DNA from: Saccharobesus litoralis
GTDB lineage: Bacteria > Pseudomonadota > Gammaproteobacteria > Enterobacterales > Alteromonadaceae
Length of the DNA stretch: 64,000 bases
Reading direction: 5' to 3'
Assembly (NCBI RefSeq): GCF_003063625.1
Contig: NZ_CP026604.1
Location: 1,612,001 to 1,676,000 of the forward strand
In this document: in pieces, positions 21,891-62,084 of the stretch
Layout of the letters: every line of letters begins with the position of its first letter
Position numbering within the stretch: the first letter of the stretch is position 1
Program-made: the position numbers and the translations under genes
The notes under the pieces: model-generated
Told to the model about the DNA's origin: nothing
Databases searched by the model: none
What the model saw: the letters and a program-made list of their open reading frames with translations, nothing else

Positions 21891-22515
21891 TTATTGTGGG
21901 TCAAAAAATGTGTATTCATAGGAAATATACAAATGCTGTGGCGAATGGCCTCTATAGCGCTCTGGTAAAGCATTACGATCTGATTGCTTAGTCGCTTTAA
22001 AATGGACTGGAAGGTTATTTTTATCTTCTAACCATTTTAGTCGGTAGTTAGCATCAAGGCTTGCACAAATATCGACTATGGGTGCGGTATGTGGCGTTTT
22101 ATAGCTGACTTTTGTCGATAGTTGCTTATCAAATCTAGCTTGCATTCTTGGTAAATATTGGCTGTATTCAGGCTCTTTGAAAAAATCTAACGGGCGCAAG
22201 TCTAATTCGCCCGTCTGCTTATTTTTCCAACCAGAGGTAACAAGCTGATTTTGTTCATCGTAAACATATACGGGTGTTGAACCTGTTCTGCCAATACCAC
22301 TTTCTACAATATTACCTCGTTTATCAAAACCATAAATGTAAGTAACACAAGGAAAATATTCTGGTGGTTCTTTGCCTTTCTCGTACCTAGAGACTTTTAT
22401 AAAAAGGGACTTAATTTTATGGTCGGTAAGAGTCTCTCGATCAAAATGCTCCATCCCCAGAGCTAAGCTATAACCGCTTGTTGCGAGTAAAACCAAATGT
22501 AATTAAAGTTAGCAT
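21891..22515 (-). pseudogene. Hypothetical secreted protein with apparent frameshift in its signal peptide
   Basis: The main frame (22496 to 21891) encodes LVLLATSGYSLALGMEHFDRE... and ends SYEYTFFDPQ. No family is recognised. It has no ATG near its 5' end and a stop just upstream. On the same strand an ATG at 22515 with AAGGAAG before it reads MLTLIT and then runs out of frame. Removing one base of the AAA run at 22495-22497 joins them into MLTLITLVLLATSGYSLALG, a good signal peptide. The gene is thus either a recent pseudogene, a sequencing error, or starts at TTG 22496. It is the last gene after the esterase in the GH26-receptor-esterase series. Confidence 0.6.
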
Positions 22516-27098: not shown

Positions 27099-30000
27099 TT
27101 ATTTGAACTCAACTTTATCGATATAGAATTGAGCAGGCGTTGTGCTATTGTCTGGGCTCATAAACCGGACGCCAAAGCCACTTAGCTCGCTTAATCCTGA
27201 TACGTCGATTGATAGTTCAACACCACCGTCAACTACATCTACCGCACCACTGTCTGACCATGTACCGTCTTGATCTTTGACGAATAACATAGCTTGAAGT
27301 GATGAACCGGCATCTTTCGCGCTAGCGGTAATATGTAAGGTTGTTACATCGCCAAGCAAAAGTCCGTCTACTGGATACGTTTGCAGAACCACGTTATCGT
27401 CGCCATCTGCTAATTGCACGACACCAGATAATGAGTTTGCACCGTCGGCAACCCAATCTTGCGCCAATTGAATACCTGATACAGGTGACCAGTTATTTTG
27501 GAACTCCCATTTTCCTGTTCCTTCAAAGTCAAACAACACTGCGTCGTCTAAACGAACATTGTCTAAATAGAACATCGCGTCAGTCGCTGTCGCATCAAAG
27601 TTTTCAATTTGTAAGCCAAAGCCGCTTACGTTGTCGATATCAGACACATCAACAGCTAGCTCTAAACCGCCTGCAACCAAGGCGGTAGCGCCAGCATCAC
27701 GCCAAACACCAGCGCCATCTTTTGCCCACAACTTAATAGTTGTTGCATCACCAGCGTTGACCGCGTTGGCACTGACTTTCAACATATTCACGCCAGTAAC
27801 ATCAATCCCACCTTCAGGGTAAGTTTGCATAATGACGCCATTGGCACCCGCTTCAGCGGAAAGGTCTTTAACATAGGTAAGTGCTTGTACACCACTGGTA
27901 GCCCAGCCGTTAGTTACGGTAATACCAGGTTTAGTGCTCCAGTTGATCTGTCCTTCAAAGCCTGATGTTTGTGGCTCGAAATCATGGATCAGGGTGTCGT
28001 CTAAGCGAACATTGTCTAAGTAGAACTTAGCATCGGTTGCTGCAGTATCAAAACCTTCAATCTGTAACCCAAAGCCGCTTACGTTGTCGATATCCGAAAC
28101 ATCAATCGCTAGGTCTAAACCACCTGCAACTAAGGCAGTTGCGCCAGCATCACGCCATACGCCTGAACCATCTTTAGCCCATAATTTGATAGTGACAGAG
28201 TCACCAACATTCATGGCATTGGCATTTAGGCTTAGGGTATTAACACTAGAAACGTCTATACCACCAGCAGGATAGGTTTGCATGATTACGCCGTTAGCAC
28301 CTGCTTCAGCACTTAGATCTTTACTGTAAGTTAATGAATAAGCACCACTTGCGGCCCAATCACTCATGACTGACAAACCAGGTGAAGGACTCCAATTGAT
28401 TTGCCCTTCAAAACCAGCCGAGCTGATCTCAAAGTTATCAAAGATACCCGCTTCTGTTTTAGCGCGTCCGCCCGGAATGTCGGCTAAGTTAATAACACCG
28501 TCTTGTGCATAGAAGGTATCCACATCAGTTGAATTGGCACCTTGAGGACCAATCACTGAGCTTGAATCCCAAACTTCAGAATTCCAAGTGATAAAGAAAG
28601 ACCACCAAGCATTGGCACCATGCATGGTTTCAACATTTGGAATGGTACCTGTTTCAGTTAAGGCAATAAGTTTTTGACCGTCGTGGCGATCTTTTAGGGT
28701 TGCGTACTCTTGAGAGAAGGTCGCACTGCTGTCGTTTCTTGGATCGGCATAGCCGTCAAAACCAACAATATCGACGTAATCATCACCAGGGTACCAATCT
28801 TCTGGCAATCCATGTGTATGGGTAAATACCCAAATCAAATTGTCTAGGCCATGGTGAGTCGTCATACGGTCGTACATTAACACCCAAAGATCTTTAAGCG
28901 CGTCTGCACCGTGGTTACCCCACCAGAACCAACCACCTGACGCTTCGTGCAATGGACGCCATAATACAGGCACATCGGCATCTTCTAGTTTTTGCAATTC
29001 TGCTGCAATGATGTCAATGTCGGCAATCAGTTCTGCATATTCTGCACTGTTAGTATCGGCTAAGGCTGCGGCCAAATCGAAGTTAGTACCATTGCTGTAG
29101 AACGAGCCTTCTGATCCGGTATTACCACTTGGCGCGCGCCAGTGCCATAAGGCAGAAATCACGATATTTTTGGCTTCGTGCTCGGCAATGATTGATTCGG
29201 TTAAGCCGTCAAAGTTGTTACCTGAGTGTGACGACGAATAATTCATATAGTCAAAAGCAACAATAGCAGGCGCATCGTCTCCAGTTGCTGCCGTGATCTT
29301 GTTGAATTCGGTCAATGGGAAGCTATCACCGTCTTTGCGTGGGAATTCTGTTTGACCAGAAAGTGTCGCAGAACCGTAGTTTTCAACTAAGAAACTCATC
29401 AAATCTTTTGCAGACTGAGTCGCGTTGTCATTAACTAGCTGATCGACGACAGGTACCGGGCCAGCAGGGGCTTCAGCAGTTACCATTGCTATTGAATCTA
29501 AGCGGTAGTAATCCCAGCCGCCACCGACTTCGATGATGTTGTCACCGGCATTTAGTTTATATACACCATAGCGATATTCGGCAAATGAGCCTGTCGCTGG
29601 AATAAATACTTCGGTAGACAGACCGTTAACTGTAATTACAGCGCCTTTGCCATCACCGTAACCAGACGCTGGTATAGCGAACGTACCATATAAAGTTACA
29701 AAGGTATCTGAAGGCACATTAACCGTAAATGTCACACTAGTGCCAGGGATGAAATCACTTGTATGAGAACCGACACCACCAGGTAAGAAATTCGCATCAC
29801 CGTCACTTACAATAGTAGGCCCGGTTGAAACACCTTCGGTTTCAACTTCTAAAACAATCTTGGAAGATTCATCAAAAACGGTGATTGTTATTTCATCAAG
29901 GACTGGATTACCGTTTTCATCTAATTCAGGGTTGCCGTCACCATCGAGCACACTTAATTGAAAGGTAAATGTTTCCGTACCAGAAACGGCTGGAGCGGTA

Positions 30001-30314
30001 AAAGTTAATTCTTGTTGGTCTAAACCAGTTAACCCATCTAATGGAGTACCGCTCGTTTGGGTCCATACAACAGTTTGGTCAGTTACAGGGCCAAGTAACC
30101 GAGAGGTCAAGGTTACTTCTGTATTTGGTGGTACTTCTGTTTTATCTTCTTCAACACCGGCTACCACCGCGACTGGTCTTTCTTCTGGTGTATATTCAAC
30201 CGTATCTGTATTTAGTGTTTTTTCTTCTACTGGACCACAGCCTGCTAATACAGCTGAAATAGTGGCAGCTAGAAGAAGAGAACCTGCCGATTTGAGTTTA
30301 CATGGAATATTCAC
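27099..30314 (-). CDS. GH26 beta-mannanase lipoprotein with CBM35-like module and three C-terminal binding-module-like repeats
   Basis: An endo-beta-1,4-mannanase at the cell surface. The lipobox LAGC gives acylated Cys26. An Ig-like region (about 45-150) and a CBM35-like module (about 155-285, YYRLDSIAMV end) precede the GH26 catalytic domain (about 300-620). Glu457 in WRPLHEASGGWFWWG is the acid/base and Glu554 in ALTETG the nucleophile. Three C-terminal modules follow (about 625-775, 776-925, 926-1071). The first two are near copies (both contain SAEAGANGVIMQTYP and KLWAKDG), and the third is diverged; they resemble mannan-binding CBM23/CBM27 types (tentative). Two operators lie upstream. 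Confidence 0.9.
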   Translation of the reverse strand: MNIPCKLKSAGSLLLAATISAVLAGCGPVEEKTLNTDTVEYTPEERPVAVVAGVEEDKTEVPPNTEVTLTSRLLGPVTDQTVVWTQTSGTPLDGLTGLDQQELTFTAPAVSGTETFTFQLSVLDGDGNPELDENGNPVLDEITITVFDESSKIVLEVETEGVSTGPTIVSDGDANFLPGGVGSHTSDFIPGTSVTFTVNVPSDTFVTLYGTFAIPASGYGDGKGAVITVNGLSTEVFIPATGSFAEYRYGVYKLNAGDNIIEVGGGWDYYRLDSIAMVTAEAPAGPVPVVDQLVNDNATQSAKDLMSFLVENYGSATLSGQTEFPRKDGDSFPLTEFNKITAATGDDAPAIVAFDYMNYSSSHSGNNFDGLTESIIAEHEAKNIVISALWHWRAPSGNTGSEGSFYSNGTNFDLAAALADTNSAEYAELIADIDIIAAELQKLEDADVPVLWRPLHEASGGWFWWGNHGADALKDLWVLMYDRMTTHHGLDNLIWVFTHTHGLPEDWYPGDDYVDIVGFDGYADPRNDSSATFSQEYATLKDRHDGQKLIALTETGTIPNVETMHGANAWWSFFITWNSEVWDSSSVIGPQGANSTDVDTFYAQDGVINLADIPGGRAKTEAGIFDNFEISSAGFEGQINWSPSPGLSVMSDWAASGAYSLTYSKDLSAEAGANGVIMQTYPAGGIDVSSVNTLSLNANAMNVGDSVTIKLWAKDGSGVWRDAGATALVAGGLDLAIDVSDIDNVSGFGLQIEGFDTAATDAKFYLDNVRLDDTLIHDFEPQTSGFEGQINWSTKPGITVTNGWATSGVQALTYVKDLSAEAGANGVIMQTYPEGGIDVTGVNMLKVSANAVNAGDATTIKLWAKDGAGVWRDAGATALVAGGLELAVDVSDIDNVSGFGLQIENFDATATDAMFYLDNVRLDDAVLFDFEGTGKWEFQNNWSPVSGIQLAQDWVADGANSLSGVVQLADGDDNVVLQTYPVDGLLLGDVTTLHITASAKDAGSSLQAMLFVKDQDGTWSDSGAVDVVDGGVELSIDVSGLSELSGFGVRFMSPDNSTTPAQFYIDKVEFK

Positions 30315-30620: not shown

Positions 30621-31346
30621 TAAATTTAGAGTAAATTTTTATTTAATGCAACGATAATTTAACAAAAAATGAACTAATTTTTTTTTATATATAAAGAAAA
30701 AGTGGAATGGAATATTTACATTTAATTTTAAATGTTTGAAATATATATAAATTATTTTTTCACCGATAAATTAATAGTGATGTATTTTGTTAAAAAGACA
30801 TTCGATTACAGCATTTTGTAAAAGATCATTTTTCAAATACTTTTTATTAGGCAGCGCGTGTCCACGAAACATCTAAACGTCGTAGCAAAATAATTTAACT
30901 TTTGTCATTCACTAAGTCTTTATTCCAATTATTTCGTAACTACTCAGCGAATATAATTTTACGCGCCATAGTGTCGCTAGTTACTCTCGTCTTTGCCGTG
31001 CCTACATTCATGTAGGCCTGTCTCTTGATCACAAGTTTCAGAAGCGCTCTGTTAGGTCAATGGGTCGAAATCTTATCACCGTGGCGTAGGAAAATACCCT
31101 CGTCATCCTCGCGCCAGCGGGGAACCAGCGACTTTTGTTGGATAAACATAGCCTAGTTTAAGCAAAAGACACTGGGTTCCTGTCTGCCTGCGTGGATGCA
31201 GGTACTTAGCGCTAGCAGGACGCGGTAGCTGTACCTACGCAGGAAAGACGGTACTTTTTTAACCGTTATGTACTATCTGCTAATCCGTATTTTTCATCGA
31301 CTTTTGGTTGTTTAAGTTAATTTATGTTTGTGTAGAAGAGACAGAC
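30621..31346. other. Non-coding region with repeat debris
   Basis: No gene seen. 30621-30960 is very AT-rich. From about 31088 to 31260 there is a degraded repeat with GTCATCCTCGCG, GACACTGGGTTCCTG and TGGATGCAGGTACTTAGC blocks. Related blocks (GACACTGGATACCTG) recur near 34168, so this is a second dispersed repeat family, partly fused with the TAGTC/GACTA family. Confidence 0.5.
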
Positions 31347-31569: not shown

Positions 31570-31583
31570 TTTAACCGGTTACA
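31570..31583. promoter_or_regulatory. LacI-type operator upstream of two-repeat secreted protein (distal)
   Basis: TTTAACCGGTTACA; two mismatches in the left half. About 210 bases before the gene at 31790. Confidence 0.65.
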
Positions 31584-31739: not shown

Positions 31740-31753
31740 TGTAACCGGTTTCT
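31740..31753. promoter_or_regulatory. LacI-type operator upstream of two-repeat secreted protein (proximal)
   Basis: TGTAACCGGTTTCT; left half and centre perfect. It is 36 bases before the start codon at 31790. Confidence 0.75.
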
Positions 31754-31789
31754 AAATTAAACACACAAAATTAACTGAAGGAAACAATA

Positions 31790-32332
31790 ATGAAAAAAAC
31801 TATACTCGCTTTAGCATTAAGCGGACTGGTATCAAGCACCTCATTTGCCGGTAATACACTAACTACAATGGCTTCAACAGGGTCGTATGGTTATTCTTTG
31901 CATAATAGCTGTAGTTGGATCGTAGATCATTCAGGTTCAAGTGGATTGTATAAGCATTTGACTTGTAATGATGTCAATGTTGCTTTTTACGCGCAAACGA
32001 CAAATGGGTGTACATTACAGCTAGCTAACCCAACGTTTAATTATACAATGACAGGCAGTGGTTGTTTTAATTACAGGATCAGCAAAGTTGAAGTAAGTTC
32101 AACACCGCCGGCTCAACCTGTTTGGGTCGCTGATGCGCATTCAACAAGCAGTAGTTGTAGTTGGGTAACCGAGTATTCCGGTTCTTCTGGCGTATATAAG
32201 CACTTGAAATGTGGTAATAAGCAAGTTGCTCGTCTTGACCAAAGCACAACGAGTTGTAGCTCTTACGTAACTGATTCCGATTATTATATGGATAAATCGT
32301 CTTGCTGGAACTTTGATATTTATAAAAAATAA
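31790..32332 (+). CDS. Secreted two-repeat cysteine-rich protein of unknown function
   Basis: 180 residues. A clear signal peptide (MKKTILALALSGLVSSTSFA) is followed by two tandem repeats of about 62 residues (about 38-100 and 117-179). Each repeat has SCSWxxxxSGSSGxYKHLxC at its start, then a third Cys (TTNGC / STTSC) and a final Cys in GCFNYRISK / SCWNFDIYK. The conserved Trp, Tyr and paired Cys suggest a small disulfide-bonded beta fold. I recognise no family. Two operators of the mannan regulon lie directly upstream, so a role in glycan binding or processing is inferred. AAGGAAAC precedes the ATG; it is a single-gene unit. Confidence 0.8.
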   Translation: MKKTILALALSGLVSSTSFAGNTLTTMASTGSYGYSLHNSCSWIVDHSGSSGLYKHLTCNDVNVAFYAQTTNGCTLQLANPTFNYTMTGSGCFNYRISKVEVSSTPPAQPVWVADAHSTSSSCSWVTEYSGSSGVYKHLKCGNKQVARLDQSTTSCSSYVTDSDYYMDKSSCWNFDIYKK

Positions 32333-32431: not shown

Positions 32432-33544
32432 TTAAAGGCAACCGTTAGCTGTATTACTTGTAACCAATCGTTCAAAATCAAATTGGTAATATGTTTGGTT
32501 GCGATTTAATGCTAAAGAGAACTGTTTGAAATTTATACAATGCCATATTTTTGATTGCCAGAGCGAGTGAAAGTGTTTGGCATTGTCTTGGGTAATAAGC
32601 TGGTGTGACAATGGCATTGCCGCCTGACTATGGCCAACATCTAACCCCATACTATGATCGTATGCCATGATGATAGCCCATGCGGCTTGCATAAAATGTC
32701 CGCCAACGGTTGCGGATATGCGTTGCTTTTTGACGGCTTCGATAGCATCGATTGACCAATCGATGCCACCTATTATCCAATTTTTATCCGTAGCTAGCAG
32801 CTTTAGCTCTTGCGAAATGGCAATAGCGATTTGATCTGAAGCTGCCCAAATGACATTGCTATTAGGATAGCGTTGAATGGCTTTGCGAATTTGTTGCTTA
32901 GCAATAGTTGGGTTCCAAAAAGTATAGAAAACCTGTTTAATTTGCGCTTGGTATTGATTGGCGCTTGTAATCAAGCCATCAGCTCTTTGTTCCGACAGTG
33001 ATGAATGATCTCCGTTAAATGCTAAAATATTCGGTTGAAGTTCACCATGATTTTTAGACTGCTTTAACAGTGCTGAACCAAGTAATTTTCCAGCCTGCCA
33101 ATCGTCGTAATATACCTCAGCAAGCCATAAAGGGTATTTCTCTTGCGGTTTACCAACTTGCTTGAACTCGGTTTTATCAATGGCTCTTTCCAAAGTAATA
33201 AAGTGCACGCCTTTATCAGTGAGTTGTTCAAATGATGCTGCGGCCTTGCCTCTATGTGGCATAAAAATAACGTAATCATATTTAGTGCTTATGTTGCTGA
33301 TAAGCTTGTGGTTGGCAAACCTATCGCCACCACCATATTTAACATCCAGTTTAATGTTTAAGTTATTGGCCGCGGCTTTGGCGACTTCTGTGGTTAGATC
33401 CCAAAACGGACGTCCTGGTTGATCAGGATTGATTAGCAGTATTTGCGTCGCCTGTGTTGTACAGGCGAATAAAGTCAGAGAAAAAGTTAAGATTAAACGT
33501 CCGATCTGTTGGTATATGTCCTTACATATACGCGAAAATTTCAT
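32432..33544 (-). CDS. Periplasmic sugar-binding protein (type 1, Peripla_BP_4-like), no ABC partner nearby
   Basis: 370 residues. An N-terminal signal peptide (LILTFSLTLFACTTQA) precedes a type-1 periplasmic binding fold: ILLINPDQPGRPFWDLTTEVAKAAANN at the start, EQRADGLITSANQYQ in the middle, VIWAASDQIAIAISQEL and WIIGGIDWSIDAIEAV in the second lobe. This pattern is that of ribose/galactose-binding proteins. No ABC permease or ATPase gene is in the window, so it may instead feed a sensor kinase or chemoreceptor (inference). It starts 3 bases after the NUDIX gene stop, so the two are co-translated. Confidence 0.8.
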   Translation of the reverse strand: MKFSRICKDIYQQIGRLILTFSLTLFACTTQATQILLINPDQPGRPFWDLTTEVAKAAANNLNIKLDVKYGGGDRFANHKLISNISTKYDYVIFMPHRGKAAASFEQLTDKGVHFITLERAIDKTEFKQVGKPQEKYPLWLAEVYYDDWQAGKLLGSALLKQSKNHGELQPNILAFNGDHSSLSEQRADGLITSANQYQAQIKQVFYTFWNPTIAKQQIRKAIQRYPNSNVIWAASDQIAIAISQELKLLATDKNWIIGGIDWSIDAIEAVKKQRISATVGGHFMQAAWAIIMAYDHSMGLDVGHSQAAMPLSHQLITQDNAKHFHSLWQSKIWHCINFKQFSLALNRNQTYYQFDFERLVTSNTANGCL

Positions 33545-35840: not shown

Positions 35841-37754
35841 TTAATTAGGTATAACAATATCAGCAGGTGTTAAAGAACTGGCTGCTGCAATTAAGTAAAA
35901 ACGACGTAAGCTATTTAATGATTGCCAGGTGGCCATTGTATCATTGCTTAGCATGGAAAATTTTAAGGTTACTTTACCTTTTGGCAGATCTAGCTGACCT
36001 ATTGGTGCTAAAGCATACTCAGATAACTGGGTAGTAAAGCTGTCGACTTGTTTACCTAGAACATAAGCTGTCATTTTAAAATTAAAGCCAGCTCCAGCAT
36101 GGCTTAGTTTATCTAACTCAATTCTATATTTGCCAGCTTGTTCAATATCAATTTTGTATTCTGCGAAGTCACCTTTGGCCTTAAAACCGCCTAGTTGATG
36201 CGCTTGGCTTTTTACATTACCGCCAGTCCGTGAAGGGCCAAATGCGTTAACGACACCGTATTCTGCATTTACCGGATAAATGGGTGTATCGAAGCTGCCA
36301 TTAGCAGCAAATATGTTTTGATAAGCTTGCTGCATTTGGGCTTGCATACGCTTGGCGATCTTTGGCTTGGTCGTCACTAGGTTTTTGCTTTCTTGCGGAT
36401 CGTTTTGCATATCAAATAGCAAATAACCTTGGGTTGGTTTAGGGTAGTGGGGTTCATCCAGTACTGGTCGTTTAATCAACTTATAACGACTGTCGCGTAA
36501 GGCAAACATTTGTTTTTCATAGTGCATATTATCGCGTGCGACTGAGTCTATCGGCGTCCATTGGTTAAAATGCTTTTTATCCGACATGACGTCGTGACTG
36601 CCAACCAACTGTGGTATTTTGCGTTTAAAAGCCTGGCCTGTTAGCAATGTGCTGCTAAATGATTCGCCATCTAGTGGTAGGTGATTTGTTTCCAGTTTGC
36701 TACCCGTCACATCAACTAGAGTAGGGAAGATATCCGTAACGTTGACGTAGGCATTGACAGTCTTGGGTTTAACTTTGGACGGCCAGCGTACAAATAGAGG
36801 TGATTTAATACCATTTTGCCAGTTACGCCCTTTCATGCCATGCCAATCATTTGGGTTGCGTTGTTGCCATTCTTTGGTTGTCATTGCGCCATAGTTGCTA
36901 GAGCCAAACCAAGGGCCATTATCACTCATAAAAATGACCATGGTGTTGTTGCTTAGCCCGCTTTCGTCCAAGTAGTCGATTAAACGGCCAATATGAAAAT
37001 CCATTTCTTCAATCATGCCATATAAGTTAGCAATCGCTTCGCGCTGGCCTTTGGCTTTGTATTTATCGACATATTGTTTCGGTGCTAACCAAGGTTCGTG
37101 TGGCGCCAAGTAACTTAAATAGGCAAAGAAAGGCTGTTGTTTATTGCGTTCAATAAAGTTGATTGCTTTATCGGTAATCAGCTCAGATACCCATTGCTGG
37201 CTTTTGTGTTTTTCAACCTTGCCTTGCTGATTAGGTTGGTAACCATAGGCGTTTTTATGCACGTACAAAGCTGAGTAATAGGCTTCGTCAAAGCCGCGAT
37301 CCCAAGGGCAATAACCTGGTGTTTTACCTAAATGCCATTTACCCCAGGTGCCTGTTTTGTAGCCATTGTTGGCTAATACATCTGCAATAGTGACTTCGTC
37401 TAAGCGCATATAATCGCGGCCACCATGAACGCCAGAAACTCCTGTTTTGTAATAGTGGCGTCCAGTAAGCAAGGCAGCGCGAGTGGTCGCGCACACCGGT
37501 GATACGTTGAAGTCACTAAATTGCAGAGATTGTGCCGCAAGTGAATCTAAGCGTGGCGTTTCGATGATGGGGTTGCCATGCAAAGATAAGTCGTCATAAC
37601 CCATATCATCTGATGTGATTAAAATGATATTGGGTTTGCTGATAGGTTTAGCCGCCGCAGCGTGGCTAGGACCTGAAAACGCCAACATAAGAATTAATGG
37701 TCCAGCTAAAATAATGCTAAGCCAAATCAAGGGATCAATCATTTTACGGGTCAT
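35841..37754 (-). CDS. S1-family sulfatase, secreted or membrane-anchored
   Basis: 637 residues. A hydrophobic N-terminal segment (PLIWLSIILAGPLILMLAF then SHAAAA) is followed by the sulfatase domain: NIILITSDDMGYDDL (metal Asp pair), catalytic Cys88 in CATTRAALLTGR, GTWGKWHLG, and MSDNGPWFG. The formylglycine motif reads C-A-T-T-R rather than the common C-x-P-S-R. A C-terminal beta domain (about 530-637) follows. I prefer the ATG at 37754 (AAAGGTGG upstream) over an earlier ATG at 37823. Its presence among mannan genes suggests sulfated mannan as a substrate (inference); it could act on another glycan. Confidence 0.85.
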   Translation of the reverse strand: MTRKMIDPLIWLSIILAGPLILMLAFSGPSHAAAAKPISKPNIILITSDDMGYDDLSLHGNPIIETPRLDSLAAQSLQFSDFNVSPVCATTRAALLTGRHYYKTGVSGVHGGRDYMRLDEVTIADVLANNGYKTGTWGKWHLGKTPGYCPWDRGFDEAYYSALYVHKNAYGYQPNQQGKVEKHKSQQWVSELITDKAINFIERNKQQPFFAYLSYLAPHEPWLAPKQYVDKYKAKGQREAIANLYGMIEEMDFHIGRLIDYLDESGLSNNTMVIFMSDNGPWFGSSNYGAMTTKEWQQRNPNDWHGMKGRNWQNGIKSPLFVRWPSKVKPKTVNAYVNVTDIFPTLVDVTGSKLETNHLPLDGESFSSTLLTGQAFKRKIPQLVGSHDVMSDKKHFNQWTPIDSVARDNMHYEKQMFALRDSRYKLIKRPVLDEPHYPKPTQGYLLFDMQNDPQESKNLVTTKPKIAKRMQAQMQQAYQNIFAANGSFDTPIYPVNAEYGVVNAFGPSRTGGNVKSQAHQLGGFKAKGDFAEYKIDIEQAGKYRIELDKLSHAGAGFNFKMTAYVLGKQVDSFTTQLSEYALAPIGQLDLPKGKVTLKFSMLSNDTMATWQSLNSLRRFYLIAAASSLTPADIVIPN

Positions 37755-37815
37755 GATGGCCACCTTTACATTGCTGTCTTTAATATTGAGAGACGTAAAA
37801 CTTAATTTTCCGTTG

Positions 37816-38988
37816 TTACGCATCTGTTTGGTTACAATAGTTTAAGGCTTCACGTGCCGCTATTATTAAATGATATAGGGTGCTGGCTGGCGCAAACTCA
37901 GCGATCACTTTATCGTCAGCGTCCAACTGGTCAAAATAGCCGCCTTTAACATCGTTATTTACATAGAATTCCATTAGGACTTCAATGGCCTCGGCAGCAT
38001 TATCTTCATATTGGGCTTTTAACTCGGCATCGGTAGCTTGCTTAGCTTGAGCAACACTGGCTTTAATTAGCTCAGTCATTGGCCAACAGCGTTTTGTCGC
38101 TTTGATGACTTTTCCGGTTTCAGTTGTTTCGTCATATATTAAACCGGTTACATTTTTACCGAAAGCAATGGCATTGTCATAAAGTGTGTTGGCATAACTA
38201 TCGACTGGAGCAGAAGTACGGTCAGAGTATTCACGCAATAACCACACCCATTCCAACATATGACCTGGCTCAACAATTTTGCCGTGTGTACCAAATTGCG
38301 GTGTCCAGTCGGCATTAAAGTATTCTAGCAATACCCTAGCACCGGCATCGTAAAAGTGTGATTCAAACATATTGAATATTTCACCGGCGCGCGCCAACCA
38401 TTTAGGTTGTTGACTGGCATCGTATAAAGCCATAAACGCTTCAAACAAATGCATATGTGGATTTTGGCGACGTTTGTCTGCACTATAATCACCTTCTAAC
38501 CAACCGCCTTTTAAACCTTTGATATAACTATCAAGGTTGGCCATCATGGCGTCGGCTTCTTGCATGGCTTTTGTGTCTTCAAATGCTCTAAAGCGCCATG
38601 CACATGAAAGTAAGTAGAAAGCTAGGTCATAGGTATCTTGTTTGCTATCAAGAATATTACCTTGTGGACCAAGCAGGTGAGCATAGGTACCAGGTTGTTC
38701 AGGATTAGCGCCATAGCGGTTTACAAATTGGTGTAGCTGATTCACTAATTGCTGGCCATTGTCGATCCAACCTAACTCATTCGCCATAGCAAAAACAAAC
38801 ATTTGACGATAATTAACTCTAACACGACGGTTGCATTCTAGATCTGGTTCGCCTTGTAACGTTAAGCGTTCATGAGAACCACCTGTGGTCGCATCAATGC
38901 CTTTAGTCGCCCACAAAGGAATTGATTCTTGCTTTAGCCAATTAGCAAACTTAACGCTAACTTGTTGTAATCGTGTCAGTTTTGTCAT
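37816..38988 (-). CDS. AGE-family sugar isomerase/epimerase (mannose isomerase or N-acylglucosamine 2-epimerase-like)
   Basis: 390 residues of the (alpha/alpha)6-barrel AGE family: NYRQMFVFAMANELGW, NPHMHLFEAFMALYD (catalytic His region), EPGHMLEWVWLLREY and TKRCWPMTELIKA. This branch contains D-mannose isomerases and YihS-like aldose-ketose isomerases; mannose-to-fructose isomerisation would suit the locus (inference). The ATG at 38988 is chosen; a TTG at 39003 is the only longer option. It is the first gene of a three-gene unit preceded by two operators. Confidence 0.85.
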   Translation of the reverse strand: MTKLTRLQQVSVKFANWLKQESIPLWATKGIDATTGGSHERLTLQGEPDLECNRRVRVNYRQMFVFAMANELGWIDNGQQLVNQLHQFVNRYGANPEQPGTYAHLLGPQGNILDSKQDTYDLAFYLLSCAWRFRAFEDTKAMQEADAMMANLDSYIKGLKGGWLEGDYSADKRRQNPHMHLFEAFMALYDASQQPKWLARAGEIFNMFESHFYDAGARVLLEYFNADWTPQFGTHGKIVEPGHMLEWVWLLREYSDRTSAPVDSYANTLYDNAIAFGKNVTGLIYDETTETGKVIKATKRCWPMTELIKASVAQAKQATDAELKAQYEDNAAEAIEVLMEFYVNNDVKGGYFDQLDADDKVIAEFAPASTLYHLIIAAREALNYCNQTDA

Positions 38989-39011
38989 GTTTATTTTAAC
39001 CAAAATAATAT

Positions 39012-39247: not shown

Positions 39248-39784
39248 AGTGTGTTACGAGTTACCAACAGTACAAGGAAGGCTGGAAGGTAACGCAACTA
39301 TATAAAACATGATGGTTTGGCCCATCCCATCGGCATTCAGGTGCAGGTGGAAACCACCTTATGCGGCATTGGTTAAGAGTCACTGTCGTGAGCGATAAGG
39401 GAAAGGCAAACACAATGATTTGTCAGGTGTGAGTTAAAGAGACGAACAGCGTAGGTGTCGAAATATTTAACCGTTGCATCCCGAAACCAAGCTACTGGGT
39501 GGAGTTTGGGAAGAGCTTAGAGGCAACCTGATTACCAACTAAGCGGGAGCCGGCAAAGAGCTGACGTGAATTTAACTCGGGGTTTTATATGGAACGTAAG
39601 AACCAGTCGTTTTGATGTTAACAGATATCCTCGAATGGAAACCCCATGAGAGCCAAGTCTGAATGCAAAGCACTGGGGCGGAGCAATTCGTAGTAGTGAT
39701 GATGATAGCTGTAATGGTTATCTAGCGAAGGGATTGCCTCGTTTTAAATGAAACTTTCATCAACTGCTGCAGCAGGAGGAATGA

Positions 39785-41020
39785 TTGAATTCAGCAAAAC
39801 CATTTAGTATTTCGAAATGGACAGTTTATGAAGCCTGGTTACGTGTAAGAGCCAACGGTGGAGCGGCAGGAATTGATGAGCAATCGATGAGTGATTTTGA
39901 ACAGGACTTGAAGAAGAACCTGTACAAGATATGGAATCGAATGTCATCGGGCAGCTATTTTCCACCGACGGTGAAGCGTGTCGAAATCCCTAAGGATAAG
40001 GGCGTTCGAGTACTAGGCATACCCACGGTATCAGACCGAGTTGCACAGATGGTCGTCAAGATGGAGTTGGAGCCTGAATTAGAATCGGTATTCGATAATG
40101 ATTCTTATGGTTACAGACCTAATCGCAGTGCACATGATGCATTAGCGATAACGCGCCAGCGGTGTTGGCGATACGACTGGGTGATTGATTTAGATATCAA
40201 AGGCTTCTTTGATAACTTGGACTGGGTGTTATTGGGCAAAGCGTTACGCAAACATACCAATAACCCATGGGTATTACTCTATATCGAACGTTGGCTTAAA
40301 GCGCCAATGGAAACCTCGGATGGTCAGATAATAGAGCGAACGAAAGGAACACCACAAGGAGGCGTGATAAGCCCATTGCTAGCCAATTTGTTTTTACACT
40401 ACGCATTCGACAAATGGTTGCGAAGAGAACATCCACATGTTCAATTTGCACGCTATGCGGATGATGCAGTGGTTCACTGTCGTAGTGAGCAAGAAGCAAA
40501 GGCGTTAAAGCAAGCTATTGAGCAACGCATGTTAGATTGTTGTCTAGAATGTCATCCAGAGAAAACTAAACTGGTTTACTGCTTTGATGAAGGTAGACAA
40601 GAAGCACATGAAGTCATTAGCTTTGATTTTCTTAGTTACTGTTTCAGGCCAAGGTTAGTAAGGAATCGGTGGGGTCGCATGTTTGTTGGCTTTACACCTG
40701 CTATTAGCCCTAAAGCGAAACAGAAAATTAGAGAGAAAGTTAAAGCGCTCAAGCTACATAAGCAAACGGGGTTAACGATACAAGAGTTGGCGTATAAGCT
40801 TAATCCGATGATAAGCGGGTGGATAAATTACTTCAGTCGGTTTTGGAAAACAGCATTAAGGCCACTTATGTCTTGGATAAACCTTAAATTGTTGAAATGG
40901 GCGAAGAAGAAATACAAACGGCTGAAATTCAGTTACCAAAGAGCAAGAAAATGGATGCAAAGGGTGTGTAATACACAACCGTATCTATTTTCTCATTGGC
41001 AATTTGGTTGCAGGCCGTAA
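39785..41020 (+). CDS. ltrA: Group II intron reverse transcriptase/maturase
   Basis: 411 residues. The fingers/palm reverse transcriptase domain carries YGYRPNRSAHDA, IDLDIKGFFDNLDW, GTPQGGVISPLLANLFLH and the catalytic YADD at residues 224-227. The C-terminal maturase (X) domain includes LAYKLNPMISGWINYFSRF. There is no HNH endonuclease domain. It starts at a TTG (39785) with AGGAGGA directly before it. It splices its host intron RNA and copies it into DNA at new sites. Confidence 0.93.
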   Translation: MNSAKPFSISKWTVYEAWLRVRANGGAAGIDEQSMSDFEQDLKKNLYKIWNRMSSGSYFPPTVKRVEIPKDKGVRVLGIPTVSDRVAQMVVKMELEPELESVFDNDSYGYRPNRSAHDALAITRQRCWRYDWVIDLDIKGFFDNLDWVLLGKALRKHTNNPWVLLYIERWLKAPMETSDGQIIERTKGTPQGGVISPLLANLFLHYAFDKWLRREHPHVQFARYADDAVVHCRSEQEAKALKQAIEQRMLDCCLECHPEKTKLVYCFDEGRQEAHEVISFDFLSYCFRPRLVRNRWGRMFVGFTPAISPKAKQKIREKVKALKLHKQTGLTIQELAYKLNPMISGWINYFSRFWKTALRPLMSWINLKLLKWAKKKYKRLKFSYQRARKWMQRVCNTQPYLFSHWQFGCRP

Positions 41021-41035
41021 ATGGTGAAACGAGAG

Positions 41036-41069
41036 GAGCCGTATGAATTGAGAGGTTCACGTACGGATC
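41036..41069 (+). ncRNA. Group II intron domain V
   Basis: GAGCCGTATGAATTGAGAGG...CACGTACGG forms the conserved 34-nt catalytic hairpin (AGC triad, tetraloop-like centre and bulge), just after the maturase gene. Confidence 0.85.
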
Positions 41070-41123
41070 TGTGAGAGGCTGAGGGGGAAGCTCCCTCGGC
41101 CTACTCGACCAAATGCCTATAAT

Positions 41124-42122
41124 TTAACGTTTAGGCGCAGCCGTACTTTCGCGCACCATAAATTCATGCGGAAGTATATATTCTTGCTGACTTAACTCTT
41201 GGCCTTCTAACATGCGATGTAAAAGATTCATCGCAGTATGGCCTAGCTCTGTTGCTGGTTGCGCAATAGTGGTTAGGGTAGGGTCGATATATTTGGCGAC
41301 TTCAAGATCATCAAAACCAGTAACCGAAATATCTTCTGGAATAGAAAGGCCTGCTGATTTAAAGCCTTTCACTGCACCTATGGCCATTTGGTCGTTAAAT
41401 GCGACTACCGCGGTAGGGCGATGATCCATATGGGTAAACTGTGTCGCAGCATTTAAACCGGACCATTTTGAGTAATCACCCTCGATAACGATTTTATCAT
41501 CATAAGGGATCCCGGCTTGCTCTAACGCGGCTTTATAACCCTTTAAACGGTTTTTAGAGTGAGCATTGTCACTAAGGCCAGTGATAGCGCCAATTCGAGT
41601 ATGACCCAGTGAAATCAAGTAATCGACAACGGTTTTTTGTGCTGCCGCGTTATCAATACGCACTGAAGGGTAGGGAGTTCCTACACAGCCACAGGCATTG
41701 ACAACGGGAAAGTCGGTACCAACGAATGTGCTTTCATCGCCTTCACGGTGCGGACGTAATTGAATAACACCATCGGCTTGGCGGGTATCGATTAGTTTTA
41801 AATACTCTTGTTCGCGTTCTAACGAATCTCGTGAATCACCTAATAGGACGTTAAAGCCTTTTTTACGGGCGACATCTTCAATCCCTTTAACCACAGTCGA
41901 GAAAAAGGGGTTAGCTAAGTCAGGTACCAAAACGAGAATGGCGTAACTGCGGTGAAAACGGAAATTGCGGGCTAACATGTTGGGTTTGTAGCCGATTTGG
42001 TCTATCGCATCCTGCACTTTCTTAAGGGCTTTTTCAGACACTTTTTCAGGGTTGCTTAGTGCTCTAGATACCGTAGCAATAGATACACCGGCAACTTTAG
42101 CCACTTCTCGAATATTAGACAT
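41124..42122 (-). CDS. LacI-family transcriptional regulator
   Basis: 332 residues. An N-terminal helix-turn-helix (IREVAKVAGVSIATVSRALSNPEKV) and hinge (ALKKVQDAIDQIGYKPNMLARN) precede a periplasmic-binding-like effector domain (ILVLVPDLANPFFSTVVKGIEDVA; VTGFDDLEVAKYIDPTLTTIAQP). It resembles CytR/PurR-type repressors. It lies centrally in the mannan locus, divergent from the GPH transporter. The many CCGG-centred palindromes around it are typical LacI-family operators, so it is the likely local regulator (inference). A degenerate operator lies about 35 bases before its start. Confidence 0.92.
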   Translation of the reverse strand: MSNIREVAKVAGVSIATVSRALSNPEKVSEKALKKVQDAIDQIGYKPNMLARNFRFHRSYAILVLVPDLANPFFSTVVKGIEDVARKKGFNVLLGDSRDSLEREQEYLKLIDTRQADGVIQLRPHREGDESTFVGTDFPVVNACGCVGTPYPSVRIDNAAAQKTVVDYLISLGHTRIGAITGLSDNAHSKNRLKGYKAALEQAGIPYDDKIVIEGDYSKWSGLNAATQFTHMDHRPTAVVAFNDQMAIGAVKGFKSAGLSIPEDISVTGFDDLEVAKYIDPTLTTIAQPATELGHTAMNLLHRMLEGQELSQQEYILPHEFMVRESTAAPKR

Positions 42123-51538: not shown

Positions 51539-51552
51539 GTTAACCGGTTACA
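51539..51552. promoter_or_regulatory. Operator-like palindrome overlapping the stop codon of the binding-protein gene
   Basis: GTTAACCGGTTACA on the + strand. On the minus strand its TAA is the stop codon of the gene at 51548. It is downstream of that gene, so its function is unclear. Confidence 0.5.
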
Positions 51553-52459: not shown

Positions 52460-52480
52460 AATAACCTCAAAGCTAATATT

Positions 52481-52494
52481 GGAGCCGGTTACCT
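52481..52494. promoter_or_regulatory. Degenerate operator before the binding-protein gene
   Basis: GGAGCCGGTTACCT keeps only the CCGGTTAC part of the palindrome, 22 bases before the start on the minus strand. Confidence 0.4.
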
Positions 52495-56487: not shown

Positions 56488-59400
56488 ATGTTCAAGACAA
56501 AACTCAGTACGCTTACTACTTCTGTGGTAGCGCTGGCGTTGCTTGGAACCACACACGCCAAAGCCGGAGAGGTTTATCCTACTTCGGTTCAATATGATTT
56601 AAACACTCAGCAAGATATCCAAGTTGATCTGATCCCTGATCCTGGAACAGGCTTTTGGTATCTAAAAGACGTCAACAGTTATTCCAACTATCAAGGTGTA
56701 CTCACCATCAACAGCGATTTTTTACAAACGCTAAGTGCAGGTGAGCATGACTTTGAAGTGTACTTTAGTGATGGTAGCTATGATGTATTAACTGTCGCTG
56801 TTAGTGATGGCTCTAATAATAGCGGAGGCAATGGCAACACGGGTAATGATACTGGAGACACAGGTTCAGGGCAGGACTCAGGTTCTGATTCTGGTAATAG
56901 CGGCTCTGACAATACGGGTACAGATGCTTCGAATACATCACTTGTATTAACTATCGATCAAGCTAACCTATCAGACGGTGCCAATCTAGCCAGTGATCAC
57001 ATCAATTTGAACAAGGGTTTAGCGCAGTGGAGCTACAATGCCCCGACGTCTGGTCAATATCAAATCGATGTTATTTATCAGTCGCCTTATGGTAGTAAGG
57101 TTAATAACTTTTATGTAAATGATAACGTGCAGAGTGTGACGACAGCTCAAACTAGCAGTGATGCCAGCTATCGTTTTACATTGGAGTTAGCTGCAGGAAA
57201 TAACACTATAGGCGTGGATGCTCGTAATCAATGGGGATATATCTGGCTGCGTGGCGTCAATATTATTGCTCCGGCAGATAGTGACAGTAGCACAGGTGAT
57301 AACGGCACTGGTGACAACGGTACCGGTGGTGATAATTCAAATTATCCAGGCAGCTATGTTACTGATAGCACGAAAGACAACTTTGCAGATTTCGCTGACA
57401 CCATCCCTAGTGTCGCCAGCAATCAATACATAGTTCAAACCGATCAAACTCAGGTGTTCGGTGATTATGGTGATCTATACGATGGTGCTTTGTTTGACAA
57501 AGGTTTGGGCCAAGACGTTGGTATCGCGTGGGCAGGATGGAACCCATATCACTACGAAGCTAATAAAGCGACCAAGATGGCGGTGATTGATGAATACAAT
57601 ATCAAGCGCGTGTCTTTCATTCCGACCTATTTTATCAGCACATATGCAGAGGGTATTCGTTGTCATGACGATAACAATACGTTAAGTGCTGCCAAACAAG
57701 CCTCTTTAATAAAAGAATTAATCGATAAAGGCGTACGCGTTAACTATCGTCCACATATCGATCCTATCCAATTCTCTTGGTTGGGAGCTAACGGAAATGA
57801 AAATCCTGGTTCATTAAATTGGCGCGGTTTGTTTGATCAACTTGATCCTATGGCCGATGACTATAAATGCGTAATTGATAAAGGCTTAGCAATTATCGAA
57901 GATGTTTTAAACCAAGTGAACCTGCCTTTAGCCGAACCAATTCGATATGACATTGGTGCTGAGTTAATGGAGTCTACTAAAAACTATCCGGCACGTTGGG
58001 TCGAGTTATTAGCCTATGTTAGGGCGCAAGTTGCAGCCAATCCGACATTAGCCAACAACGTATTTTTTAGTCACAACTTTAGTCATCATATTCAATACTT
58101 GATGGAGCTTGAAAATCACCCTGAGTACTTCTCAAGAATTGTTTCAGGTTCCAGCTTTCAACAGTATCAACACTTGTTGTTTTTGGATGATATGACGGAT
58201 CAGCAACGTGCAGATATTGCCAACTACATTAAGGCGTTGGATACGGTTACTGTGTCGCAATATATGCCAATGGATATCTTAAATCCGGTTACGGACAACA
58301 ATTCAACGAGCATACCGACTACCCCAAGCGATGTAAAAGATGCCTTGCAGATCCATGAACAAAACTTTTTGCAAAAAGTGTTGATGGGCAAATTGGGTAT
58401 TGCTAAAGATGATCTGCCGCCATTCCATTTAGGTGAATATGGTATGGGTGTTAAAGGCTTAGTGACACCTAATGTTTGGGATAGAGATGAAGTCACCGCT
58501 GCAGAATTGGTTAGCTACGAAGCTCATCAAAAACATGCCGAAGTTGCGATTAAGGGCTTACTTGAATATATGCAAGATCCTAATACTGTTGCTAAATCAT
58601 TAATGATTTGGGTCAGCGGTGCGCCTTATGATGTGATTGGTTTTTATAATGGCGATGGTGTTGGATTAGATGTTGGTGACGCCGAGCATGGTTATCCGGG
58701 ACAATCTCCGTTTAATGTTGAGGCCGCTGCAGCATTAAAAGATTACTGGACAGCTAATTCAAATAATCCTCAGGATCCAATAGATCCAATAGATCCAATA
58801 GATCCAACCGATCCGACAGATCCAACCGATCCAGTTGACCCTAACGATCCTGTGATCCCGCCACTATCCACCACAACTTTAACAATTGCTGATGCCGTTG
58901 ATTCTAGCGTTACTGTGCAACCCGTTACGATTGAAGCTGACTATATTCAAATTGAAAATAGCCAAGTAGGTTCTTCTGCAGGTTGGGACTTTACCGTTGA
59001 AACCGCAGGACAGTATCGCATTACTTTAAATGTCGAAAACGTTAATGGTGATAATCGGGTTAACCAAGCTTTTCTTAATGGCACGGTTAAAGACTTTACT
59101 GTTTCTTCAACAGCACAAATAGTTTTTGATGCTGAGTTAGAAGCCGGTTCGCATAGCACTGGGATCCGAGTTGCCAATACCAGTACACATTGGGGATATG
59201 TTCAGCTTAAATCCGCTACGGTCGAGCATTTAGGCAGTTTATCGATTAGTTCACCCACTTCAGGTGCGCAATTACCAAGTGGGCAAGATATTGTTGTGCA
59301 TTTTGATAAGTTAGGTAATGGTGATATCACCTACAGCATAAACAGTGGTGCACAGCAAACTTATAGTGGTGCTAGTCCATTGGTTATCCCTGTTACCAAT

Positions 59401-60732
59401 GAAGGTTTTTATCGTATTAGTTTAGGTTTACAAGGTACGAGTACAACGCAAAGTATTGGAGTTACCGTGGGTGAACTCACCACGGGTTCATTTGTTACCA
59501 CCAATGGCACCCAATTTATGTTGGATGGTAAACCTTGGTACTTTAATGGCACTAATCAGTACTATCTGATGTACAAGCCAGAACCTATGGCGCAAGACTT
59601 CTTTAATCGAGCCGAGGCGGTTGGTTTAAATGCGGTTCGCACTTGGATGTTTTGTAATGACGAGAAAACCCATGACGGGGTTTGTATTAATCTGCAATCC
59701 GGCAATAGTTTTGTATTGAGCAAAGCGCCTAGTGAGCGAACGGCTGCTGAGCAAGCCTTTATTGATCGCAGCTTTGAGTTGTTCGATAACTATGTGGCGT
59801 TAGCGGCTGAGAAGAATATTCGCTTGGTGCTGAGCTTAGCGGACGAGTGGGACTATTTCGGCCGAATTACCGATTACGGGCCCTATACCGATATGACAGG
59901 GCGCGCCCAGTTTAAAGCCTTTATCACTAACTTACTTAATCACACCAATCAAATTACTGGTATCGCCTATAAAGATGACCCGACCATTATGATGTGGGAA
60001 TTAGCTAACGAACCGCGGATTGCCAATGGTTTTGCTGATTGGGTAGATGATATTGCAAGTCATATTAAATCAATTGCACCACAACATTTGGTATCGATTG
60101 GTATGGAGTCTTCGTTCAACTTTAATAGTTCAGGCGACGATTACCAAACCCTTAAATCACTTAATGCCAATCCTAATATTGATGCTGTTAGTGCGCATAT
60201 CTATCCCACTTGGTGGAATATGACAGATGCACAAACCGTTAATAATTTTGAACTGTTGGCGCAGCTAGGTCGCGAATTAAACAAACCTACCTATATTGGA
60301 GAATTTAGCTGGCCAGCCAATGTAATTCGACCTGTTGGTCAGGAAGACAGCGCGGCTTATACCACGGGCACTATTGAAGCGGGTTTGGCTAAACGTACTC
60401 AAGTGTTTACCGATTGGTATGCGGTTGCTTGGAATAACAAAGACGCAATCGGCGGTATGTTGAGCTGGCAACTTAGCGGCCTTGAATGGGGCAATGGCAG
60501 TACTGGCGGCCAGTGGGGTTCAGGCCCTTATGGTGAATATTCAGGCGGTTGGTCGGCTAACAATGATGGGTTCCAATTCTACTGTGTCATCAACGATAAC
60601 GAATACAACATTACTGGCTTAGGTGCGCCAGGAAATAATGTTGAAGGCAATACCATTCACTTAAATCTGCATAAGCCCGTATGTGATCTGATCAAACAAT
60701 ACTCAGCGGATTACCGCGCATTGTTTGAATAA
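56488..60732 (+). CDS. Large secreted bimodular enzyme: GH113-like barrel plus GH5 mannanase, with two CBM35-like modules
   Basis: 1414 residues with a signal peptide (LTTSVVALALLGTTHAKA). Order: N-terminal beta domain (27-110); Gly/Asp/Ser linker; CBM35-like module (about 152-262, HWGY-like NQWGYIWLRGV); linker; a barrel domain (about 290-750) with Glu492 in YDIGAELMES and Glu650 in FHLGEYGMG; a DPIDPTDP linker (about 763-790); a second CBM35-like module (about 797-910); an Ig-like domain; and a GH5_7-type mannanase (about 1005-1414) with Glu1175 in WELANEP and Glu1272 in YIGEFSW. The first barrel resembles clan GH-A, best GH113 (iGxEL motif); this is tentative. It would attack mannan with two active sites. 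Confidence 0.87.
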   Translation: MFKTKLSTLTTSVVALALLGTTHAKAGEVYPTSVQYDLNTQQDIQVDLIPDPGTGFWYLKDVNSYSNYQGVLTINSDFLQTLSAGEHDFEVYFSDGSYDVLTVAVSDGSNNSGGNGNTGNDTGDTGSGQDSGSDSGNSGSDNTGTDASNTSLVLTIDQANLSDGANLASDHINLNKGLAQWSYNAPTSGQYQIDVIYQSPYGSKVNNFYVNDNVQSVTTAQTSSDASYRFTLELAAGNNTIGVDARNQWGYIWLRGVNIIAPADSDSSTGDNGTGDNGTGGDNSNYPGSYVTDSTKDNFADFADTIPSVASNQYIVQTDQTQVFGDYGDLYDGALFDKGLGQDVGIAWAGWNPYHYEANKATKMAVIDEYNIKRVSFIPTYFISTYAEGIRCHDDNNTLSAAKQASLIKELIDKGVRVNYRPHIDPIQFSWLGANGNENPGSLNWRGLFDQLDPMADDYKCVIDKGLAIIEDVLNQVNLPLAEPIRYDIGAELMESTKNYPARWVELLAYVRAQVAANPTLANNVFFSHNFSHHIQYLMELENHPEYFSRIVSGSSFQQYQHLLFLDDMTDQQRADIANYIKALDTVTVSQYMPMDILNPVTDNNSTSIPTTPSDVKDALQIHEQNFLQKVLMGKLGIAKDDLPPFHLGEYGMGVKGLVTPNVWDRDEVTAAELVSYEAHQKHAEVAIKGLLEYMQDPNTVAKSLMIWVSGAPYDVIGFYNGDGVGLDVGDAEHGYPGQSPFNVEAAAALKDYWTANSNNPQDPIDPIDPIDPTDPTDPTDPVDPNDPVIPPLSTTTLTIADAVDSSVTVQPVTIEADYIQIENSQVGSSAGWDFTVETAGQYRITLNVENVNGDNRVNQAFLNGTVKDFTVSSTAQIVFDAELEAGSHSTGIRVANTSTHWGYVQLKSATVEHLGSLSISSPTSGAQLPSGQDIVVHFDKLGNGDITYSINSGAQQTYSGASPLVIPVTNEGFYRISLGLQGTSTTQSIGVTVGELTTGSFVTTNGTQFMLDGKPWYFNGTNQYYLMYKPEPMAQDFFNRAEAVGLNAVRTWMFCNDEKTHDGVCINLQSGNSFVLSKAPSERTAAEQAFIDRSFELFDNYVALAAEKNIRLVLSLADEWDYFGRITDYGPYTDMTGRAQFKAFITNLLNHTNQITGIAYKDDPTIMMWELANEPRIANGFADWVDDIASHIKSIAPQHLVSIGMESSFNFNSSGDDYQTLKSLNANPNIDAVSAHIYPTWWNMTDAQTVNNFELLAQLGRELNKPTYIGEFSWPANVIRPVGQEDSAAYTTGTIEAGLAKRTQVFTDWYAVAWNNKDAIGGMLSWQLSGLEWGNGSTGGQWGSGPYGEYSGGWSANNDGFQFYCVINDNEYNITGLGAPGNNVEGNTIHLNLHKPVCDLIKQYSADYRALFE

Positions 60733-60810: not shown

Positions 60811-60899
60811 GAAAAACAATAACAAGGCCAAGGATGCGCCACCAATTTACTTAAATAACAAGTGTAATTAACACACAAAACACGATTTTGAGGATATTT

Positions 60900-62084
60900 A
60901 TGAATAAATTAGCAAAAGCAATAACGGCAACTTTAGCCTTAGGTATGTCAGCTTCAAGTTTCGCTGGTTTCTATGTAAATAGTGGCGATATCTACGATGG
61001 TAATGGCAACAAGTTTGTTATGCGTGGTGTTAACCATGCTCACGCTTGGTTTACCGACAAGCTTGATACTTCGCTTTCGGGTATAGCTGCAACAGGCGCA
61101 AATACGGTGCGTGTTGTGCTAAGTAATGGTCATCGTTGGACAAAAAATAGTGCTAGCGATGTTGCCAATATTATTCAAAAAGCTAAAGACCATAACTTAG
61201 TGGCCGTGTTAGAAGTACATGACACCACGGGTTATGGTGAAGATGGTGCAGCAGCGACATTATCATCGGCGGTAGACTATTGGATCAGTATTAAAAATCA
61301 ACTTGTCGGTCAGGAAGACTACGTGATCATTAATATAGGCAATGAGCCATTTGGTAACAATCAGGCGGCAAGTAGCTGGATTAACGATCATAAAACGGCG
61401 ATCACACGTCTGCGTAACAATGGTTTTACCCACACGCTAATGGTTGATGCGCCTAACTGGGGACAAGATTGGCAAAACGTGATGCGCGATAATGCATCTC
61501 AAGTATTCAATCATGATCCAGACAAAAACATCGTATTTAGCGTGCATATGTATGAAGTTTACGACAGCTACAACAAGGTTAATAACTATATGTCGACGTT
61601 TGCCAATAATGGCCTACCACTTGTGGTAGGTGAGTTTGCAGCGACACATAAACAATTTGATGTTGATGAAGCGTCAATCATGGAACGTGCTGAATATTAT
61701 GATATGGGTTATCTAGGTTGGTCTTGGGATGGCAATGACGCCAGTTATGGTGAAATTGATATCGTTAATAATTGGAATGCTAATTCGTTAACCACCTGGG
61801 GCAATACCTTACTAAACAGCAGCAATGGTATAACTAACACCTCAGTATTATCGACTATCTATACCGGTGGCTCAGGCAATTATCCAAATTGTAGTTCAGC
61901 TGCGGCTGATCCTGATGGAGATGGTTGGGGTTGGGAAAACGGCCAAAGCTGTATTGTTGTTAATACCCATGCGCCGAATGGTTTCCCTTACTGCAGCTCA
62001 TCATCGGTTGATCCCGACGGTGACGGCTGGGGTTGGGAAAACAATGGTTCTTGCGTAGTACAAGGTTCTGCCGCGGATTACTAA
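60900..62084 (+). CDS. GH5_8-type beta-mannanase with two C-terminal CBM10 modules
   Basis: 394 residues. A signal peptide (ITATLALGMSASSFA) is followed by a GH5 barrel with FVMRGVNHAHAWF, AATGANTVRVVLSNG, Glu acid/base in IINIGNEPFGN, VHMYEVYDSY, the nucleophile Glu in LVVGEFAATH, and WSWDGND. Two short Cys-rich CBM10 modules (YPNCSSAAADPDGDGWGWENGQ... and YCSSSSVDPDGDGWGWENNG...) end the protein and should bind crystalline mannan or cellulose. The ATG at 60900 with TTGAGG upstream begins the signal peptide. It lies 167 bases after the large enzyme gene with a palindrome between. Confidence 0.92.
   Translation: MNKLAKAITATLALGMSASSFAGFYVNSGDIYDGNGNKFVMRGVNHAHAWFTDKLDTSLSGIAATGANTVRVVLSNGHRWTKNSASDVANIIQKAKDHNLVAVLEVHDTTGYGEDGAAATLSSAVDYWISIKNQLVGQEDYVIINIGNEPFGNNQAASSWINDHKTAITRLRNNGFTHTLMVDAPNWGQDWQNVMRDNASQVFNHDPDKNIVFSVHMYEVYDSYNKVNNYMSTFANNGLPLVVGEFAATHKQFDVDEASIMERAEYYDMGYLGWSWDGNDASYGEIDIVNNWNANSLTTWGNTLLNSSNGITNTSVLSTIYTGGSGNYPNCSSAAADPDGDGWGWENGQSCIVVNTHAPNGFPYCSSSSVDPDGDGWGWENNGSCVVQGSAADY

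Follow-up and report, generated by a model that had tools for sequence, protein, structure and literature searches.

A cysteine-rich, two-repeat secreted protein of Saccharobesus litoralis is a candidate mannan-binding accessory of a LacI-type mannan regulon

The gene at positions 31790 to 32332 of the window (the whole stretch of 64,000 nucleotides analyzed here, from contig NZ_CP026604.1 of Saccharobesus litoralis) encodes a secreted orphan protein that is real, is under selection, and carries an old internal duplication. Its membership in the local mannan (LacI) regulon is well supported by the operator sequences upstream of it. The explanation that we favor, at a little less than an even chance, is that the orphan acts as a stand-alone, non-catalytic, two-domain mannan-binding or enzyme-assisting protein of this beta-mannan regulon. 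More tentatively, and with clearly less confidence, the repeat may found a new family of disulfide-stabilized beta-domain lectins/CBMs, namely free and diffusible two-domain mannan binders that belong to the LacI mannan regulon of one Alteromonadales lineage.

Re-reading of the DNA returned the same coordinates and translation for the open reading frame (ORF) as the initial annotation. The gene and its parts are as follows.

31777..31782, + strand: GAAGGA, Shine-Dalgarno-like, 7 nt before the ATG (direct reading)
31790..32332, + strand: orphan gene including its stop codon, for a secreted Cys-rich protein of 180 aa with two repeats (ORF and translation, repeat statistics, dN/dS between repeats)
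31790..31849, + strand: signal peptide, residues 1–20 (MKKTILALALSGLVSSTSFA), without a lipobox (direct reading)
31901..32086, + strand: repeat 1, residues 38–99 (HNSCSW...FNYRISK), with Cys 41, 59, 74, and 92 (sequence alignment)
32087..32146, + strand: linker, residues 100–119 (VEVSSTPPAQPVWVADAHST), where AlphaFold2 confidence is low (direct reading)
32147..32326, + strand: repeat 2, residues 120–179 (SSSCSW...WNFDIYK), with Cys 123, 141, 156, and 172 (alignment; predicted six-stranded beta domain)

The N-terminus (MKKTILALALSGLVSSTSFA followed by GN), read by eye, is a typical Sec/SPase I signal, in agreement with the signal peptide noted before. The mature protein has 160 residues (17.5 kDa, near-neutral), including eight cysteines and 54 Ser/Thr/Asn residues. 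The two repeats were also confirmed, with lengths of 62 and 60 residues rather than 62 for each. Of the 60 aligned residues, 26 are identical. Over about 60 residues the two halves show 41% identity (BLAST E 9e-17), and the alignment score of 141 was reached by none of 20,000 shuffles (maximum 79). The four cysteines of each repeat align (C41/C123, C59/C141, C74/C156, and C92/C172), and the previously described pattern SCSWxxxxSGSSGxYKHLxC is kept in both copies. The shared motifs are SCSW, SGSSG, YKHL, and, near the repeat end, C-F/W-N-Y/F; aromatic and polar residues (W, Y, H, K, S, and N) make up the positions kept in both copies.

Differences between the DNA sequences of the two repeats are commonest at the third codon position (26, 23, and 34 of 60 at positions 1, 2, and 3, respectively), and the NG86 estimates are 0.60 for dN and 1.58 for dS (dN/dS about 0.4). 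These values indicate a coding gene subject to purifying selection, and an old duplication in which the protein sequence has been conserved. A recent duplication of the repeats is ruled out by the dS value, and a spurious ORF is ruled out by the dN/dS ratio, the ribosome-binding site, and a GC3 (0.31) like that of the neighboring genes (0.31–0.41). For the fold, AlphaFold2 with the two-repeat alignment predicted a six-stranded all-beta domain (mean pLDDT 83.8, pTM 0.66); the five models of the repeat had pLDDT values of 79–84 with an alignment of two sequences only. A single-sequence run on the full mature protein gave the same strands for repeat 2, which was well predicted.

The regulatory elements assigned to the orphan gene are two operators and a regulator gene.

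31741..31752, no strand: proximal operator GTAACCGGTTTC, centered 43 bp upstream of the ATG
31571..31582, no strand: distal operator TTAACCGGTTAC, centered 213 bp upstream of the ATG and 170 bp from the proximal one
41124..42122, - strand: regulator of the LacI family that presumably reads the operators (Pfam LacI and Peripla_BP; orthologues flanked by the same operator)

Each of the two operators differs from the 12-bp consensus GTAACCGGTTAC by one mismatch. The exact 12-mer has seven copies in the 5.87-Mb genome (two contigs, the second of 208,085 bp), all within positions 20303–56214 of the window. One-mismatch sites number fourteen in the genome; the six that lie in the window are the only ones to retain the AACCGGTT core, and two of these six precede the orphan gene. 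The window has 16 copies of the core itself, whereas 1.1 would be expected. Furthermore, the orphan is the only ORF of at least 100 aa that starts less than 900 bp from the 31571 and 31741 sites and runs away from them. In a survey of LacI regulons, the interval from 140 to 30 bp before the start held more than 75% of sites, and even palindromes had a central CG (PMC4052901). The orphan operators fit this description, with a central CG and the proximal site at the usual position, and the promoter had no confident placement. The initial annotation placed two operators right upstream of the gene; two do exist, but only the proximal one is close. Its proposal of co-regulation with the mannanases gains stronger support than it could have known, and the mannan operator set includes the orphan sites. 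Looping of the DNA between the orphan operators is possible because their spacing of 170 bp is matched by the operator pair of the CBM35-GH5 gene (56032/56203), which is 171 bp apart.

The window holds a full mannan locus, which includes the following three genes.

27099..30314, - strand: GH26 lipoprotein mannanase, the neighbor beyond operators 30577 and 30608 (Glyco_hydro_26 and Mann_GBD_bact)
56488..60732, + strand: large secreted protein in which Pfam finds two CBM35 stretches (CBM_35) and a GH5-type domain (Cellulase), downstream of operators 56032 and 56203
60888..62084, + strand: secreted GH5 with two CBM10 modules (Pfam)

The mannan set comprises GH27, CE2, GH26 with mannanase galactose-binding-like domains, a TonB-type receptor, two AGE-type epimerases, GH130, transporters including a sugar transporter, hexokinase, CBM35-GH5, and GH5-CBM10 (Pfam for the enzymes and the sugar transporter). 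Further Pfam matches in the locus are NUDIX, a phosphoglucomutase/phosphomannomutase-type enzyme (PMM), a sulfatase, and the LacI regulator.

Close orthologues of the LacI regulator (45–61% identical) are present in 27 of 248 other genomes of the family, and 20 of their loci (26–40 kb each) were compared. GH130 and the epimerases are kept nearly always, and GH26, the TonB receptor, sulfatase, NUDIX, and PMM are often kept. The exact GTAACCGGTTAC is found in 12 of the 20 regions and one-mismatch forms only in five more (17 in total); the related variant TGAACCGGTTCA stands alone in three. Because the operator and the neighboring genes are kept at the LacI orthologues, the link between regulator, operator, and mannan genes is well supported by comparison. 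Homologues of the orphan are absent from all 20 loci (the best full-sensitivity match, E 0.02, is a chance ORF), and no convincing analogous small secreted Cys-rich gene was found there. This absence indicates that core mannan catabolism does not need the orphan. In one relative (G169), GH26 and NUDIX are directly adjacent with operators alone between them, whereas the two are separated in the window by the orphan, the gene for a periplasmic binding protein, and a MITE-like repeat. Judged from these loci, the orphan is a lineage-specific accessory added to an existing regulon, or one lost in other lineages.

Such a history may also be explained by a rearrangement that put a lineage-specific gene under the mannan operators, in which case its function would be unrelated to mannan or there would be little function. 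The orphan status, the absence between GH26 and NUDIX in G169, and the multi-copy MITE-like repeat just upstream agree with this explanation. It is opposed, however, by the age of the internal duplication and the purifying selection on it, by the presence of two operators, of which the proximal one occupies the position usual for LacI, and by a good ribosome-binding site; we consider it rather unlikely.

The initial annotation recognized no family, and this was borne out by searches of Pfam, NCBIfam, PADLOC, the PDB, predicted folds, and genomes. At E 10, no Pfam family matched the whole protein or either repeat, which includes all known CBM profiles in Pfam, and NCBIfam and PADLOC gave no matches. 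The same three profile collections gave no match to a protease inhibitor or another known non-carbohydrate family; a match of this kind had been named as evidence against a carbohydrate role. Sequence search of the PDB returned only partial transferrin and ice-binding matches (E 0.2–0.7). Foldseek searches with the repeat model had best E values of 2.0 against the PDB and 0.25 against BFVD, with none below 0.001 in either, and matched no known CBM or lectin fold in the PDB; the small size of the domain and an alignment of only two sequences limit these searches. Thus, the profile and structure-prediction search of one repeat that had been suggested matched no known family or fold. Weak PHROG matches (E 0.003–0.03) lie partly on the linker and are not common to both repeats. 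Among these, phrog_13095 (E 0.003) was rejected: it covers mostly the linker, is lost when the second half is scanned alone, and also matches in 7 of 14 control genomes.

Genome searches gave the same result. No homologue was found in 60 relatives or in sets of 399 family, 395 order, 369 class, and 399 phylum genomes, which overlap and amount to over a thousand related genomes altogether; the marginal profile matches (E 0.0006–0.01) all have internal stop codons. Phages and plasmids had none (one plasmid match at E 0.7 was taken as chance), nor did viral contigs including IMG/VR. A conserved-peptide scan of GTDB contigs from 84,980 species, with the protein and the repeat alignment, was also negative; as it detects only close relatives, a more distant family may exist. 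Fusions of the repeat to glycoside hydrolases, which the initial annotation had proposed to look for, were not found, as the collections searched hold no homologue, fused or free. The source genome is the sole member of its genus among the genomes sampled. The orphan is a clean one, an old duplicated domain without a relative in these collections.

For the favored reading of a mannan-binding accessory, we counted the repeats and the coding evidence, the predicted all-beta domain, the aromatic and polar conservation with nothing that resembles a catalytic center, the operator sites and their LacI-like placement, the full mannan locus with the CAZy classes of a known marine beta-mannan PUL (described below), and a GspD secretin encoded in the genome. 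Counted against it were the lack of a matching CBM family or solved structure, the lack of a glycoside hydrolase fusion, and the absence from the 20 loci. Without mannan, the LacI-family repressor would occupy the two orphan operators, possibly via a DNA loop; mannose or a manno-oligosaccharide would then free the repressor, such that the orphan is expressed together with the mannanases. The protein would be exported by Sec, its eight cysteines would be oxidized in the periplasm to form two disulfides per domain, and it would either remain in the periplasm or exit by type II secretion. With its two small beta domains on either side of a short linker that contains proline, the protein may bind mannan or gluco/galactomannan in a bivalent, avidity-type manner, which would keep the bound polymer or large oligosaccharides near the outer-membrane receptor as well as the GH26 and GH5 mannanases. 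Should the domain bind mannan, a new binding-module family would be defined, and marine Gammaproteobacteria would be seen to use free secreted binding proteins beside mannanases. Since the operator evidence points to the substrate, the function is directly testable with a few commercial mannans.

Shared regulation does not fix the function: a protein for adhesion, inhibition, or antimicrobial action could be under the same induction. Marine mannan is often particulate, and a mannan-induced adhesion or biofilm-matrix protein may attach cells to particles with no specific mannan recognition by each domain. A secreted, beta-rich, repeated protein with this Ser/Thr/Asn content would suit such a role, but the orphan has two repeats only and a small mass, with no visible surface-anchoring signal and no large repeat array, which makes adhesion an unlikely explanation. 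An inhibitor or antimicrobial released during mannan digestion, for example against the enzymes or cells of competitors, is less likely still. Small, Cys-rich, secreted, one-lineage orphans are as expected for fast-evolving antagonistic proteins; however, no inhibitor family was matched in Pfam or NCBIfam and none in PADLOC, the convergent neighbor encodes a periplasmic binding protein and no immunity-like gene is adjacent, and the dN/dS between the repeats gives no sign of diversifying selection. Finally, a role as a new, small enzyme for mannan or for its sulfate or acetyl decorations is highly improbable: although the regulon holds a sulfatase and a CE2 esterase and each repeat has one invariant His (in YKHL), enzymes are rarely built from tandem domains of about 60 residues with presumed disulfides, and the two repeats have no conserved Asp or Glu in common.

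Several known systems resemble the orphan or its locus in part. The cyanovirin-N homology domain (PF08881) is a small secreted mannose-specific lectin with two tandem repeats and disulfides. It has two cysteines per repeat, compared to four in the orphan, and neither a Pfam match nor a fold match with the repeat model was found. CBM10 (PF02013), present in the neighboring GH5, is likewise short, aromatic, and cysteine-containing and occurs in two tandem copies, but its profile has 36 positions and did not match the orphan in Pfam even at E 10. CBM112, an internal module of a Bacteroides GH26 that binds beta-mannan specifically, is also a previously unrecognized domain from a beta-mannan locus (PMC13357471). 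It sits inside an enzyme, whereas the orphan is a free secreted two-repeat protein; the two are set apart by description, the sequence scans being those of Pfam and the PDB. At the level of the locus, a beta-mannan PUL that has been studied by experiment, in Muricauda sp. MAR_2010_75, has the same CAZy classes (GH5, GH26, GH27, GH130, and CE2; PMC9860051). However, it is a SusCD system of Bacteroidota, whereas the locus here has a TonB-type receptor and a LacI-family regulator, with the orphan as an extra. The LacI-family ManR regulons (PMC4052901; Shewanella ManR1/ManR2, PMC3223726) share a LacI-type regulator and an even palindromic CG-centered operator upstream of mannoside genes; this likeness to the regulator at 41124–42122 is one of type and operator form and does not imply orthology.

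Other features of the locus were observed. The sulfatase and AGE-type epimerase genes at 35841–39003 are part of the mannan operator group. Several relatives also have sulfatase genes next to the LacI regulator, which hints at a sulfated marine mannan as a possible natural substrate. The periplasmic binding protein gene convergent with the orphan (32432–33544, Peripla_BP_4) has homologues in the LacI loci of G064, G203, G235, and G004. Its product may be a sensor component, as the window shows no ABC transporter next to the gene. The gene at 51548–52510 encodes a signal-peptide-bearing protein without a Pfam match, has operators on both sides (51540 and 52613), and has homologues near the LacI orthologues in G138, G203, and G102. 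An unannotated 201-aa ORF without a Pfam match (21891–22496) lies downstream of the CE2 gene. Among the relatives, one genus has a conserved secreted protein of 165 aa, encoded about 4–5 kb from the LacI orthologue (L066:4906-5403 in G085; the G014 and G120 loci hold copies). This protein contains four cysteines and its two halves look similar, but it is not related to the orphan.

Mobile elements are also found in the window. The MITE-like repeat of about 300 bp (31017–31344) has inverted ends (CTGTCTCTTGATCACAA / TTGTGTAGAAGAGACAG), sits between the GH26 operators and the orphan operators, and has tens of copies on both genome contigs (67 matching pieces). A group II intron signature at 39311–41109 surrounds a reverse-transcriptase-like ORF (39785–41020) and lies within the mannan locus, with an epimerase gene on one side and lacI on the other; a second such signature (62280–62397) follows the GH5-CBM10 gene.
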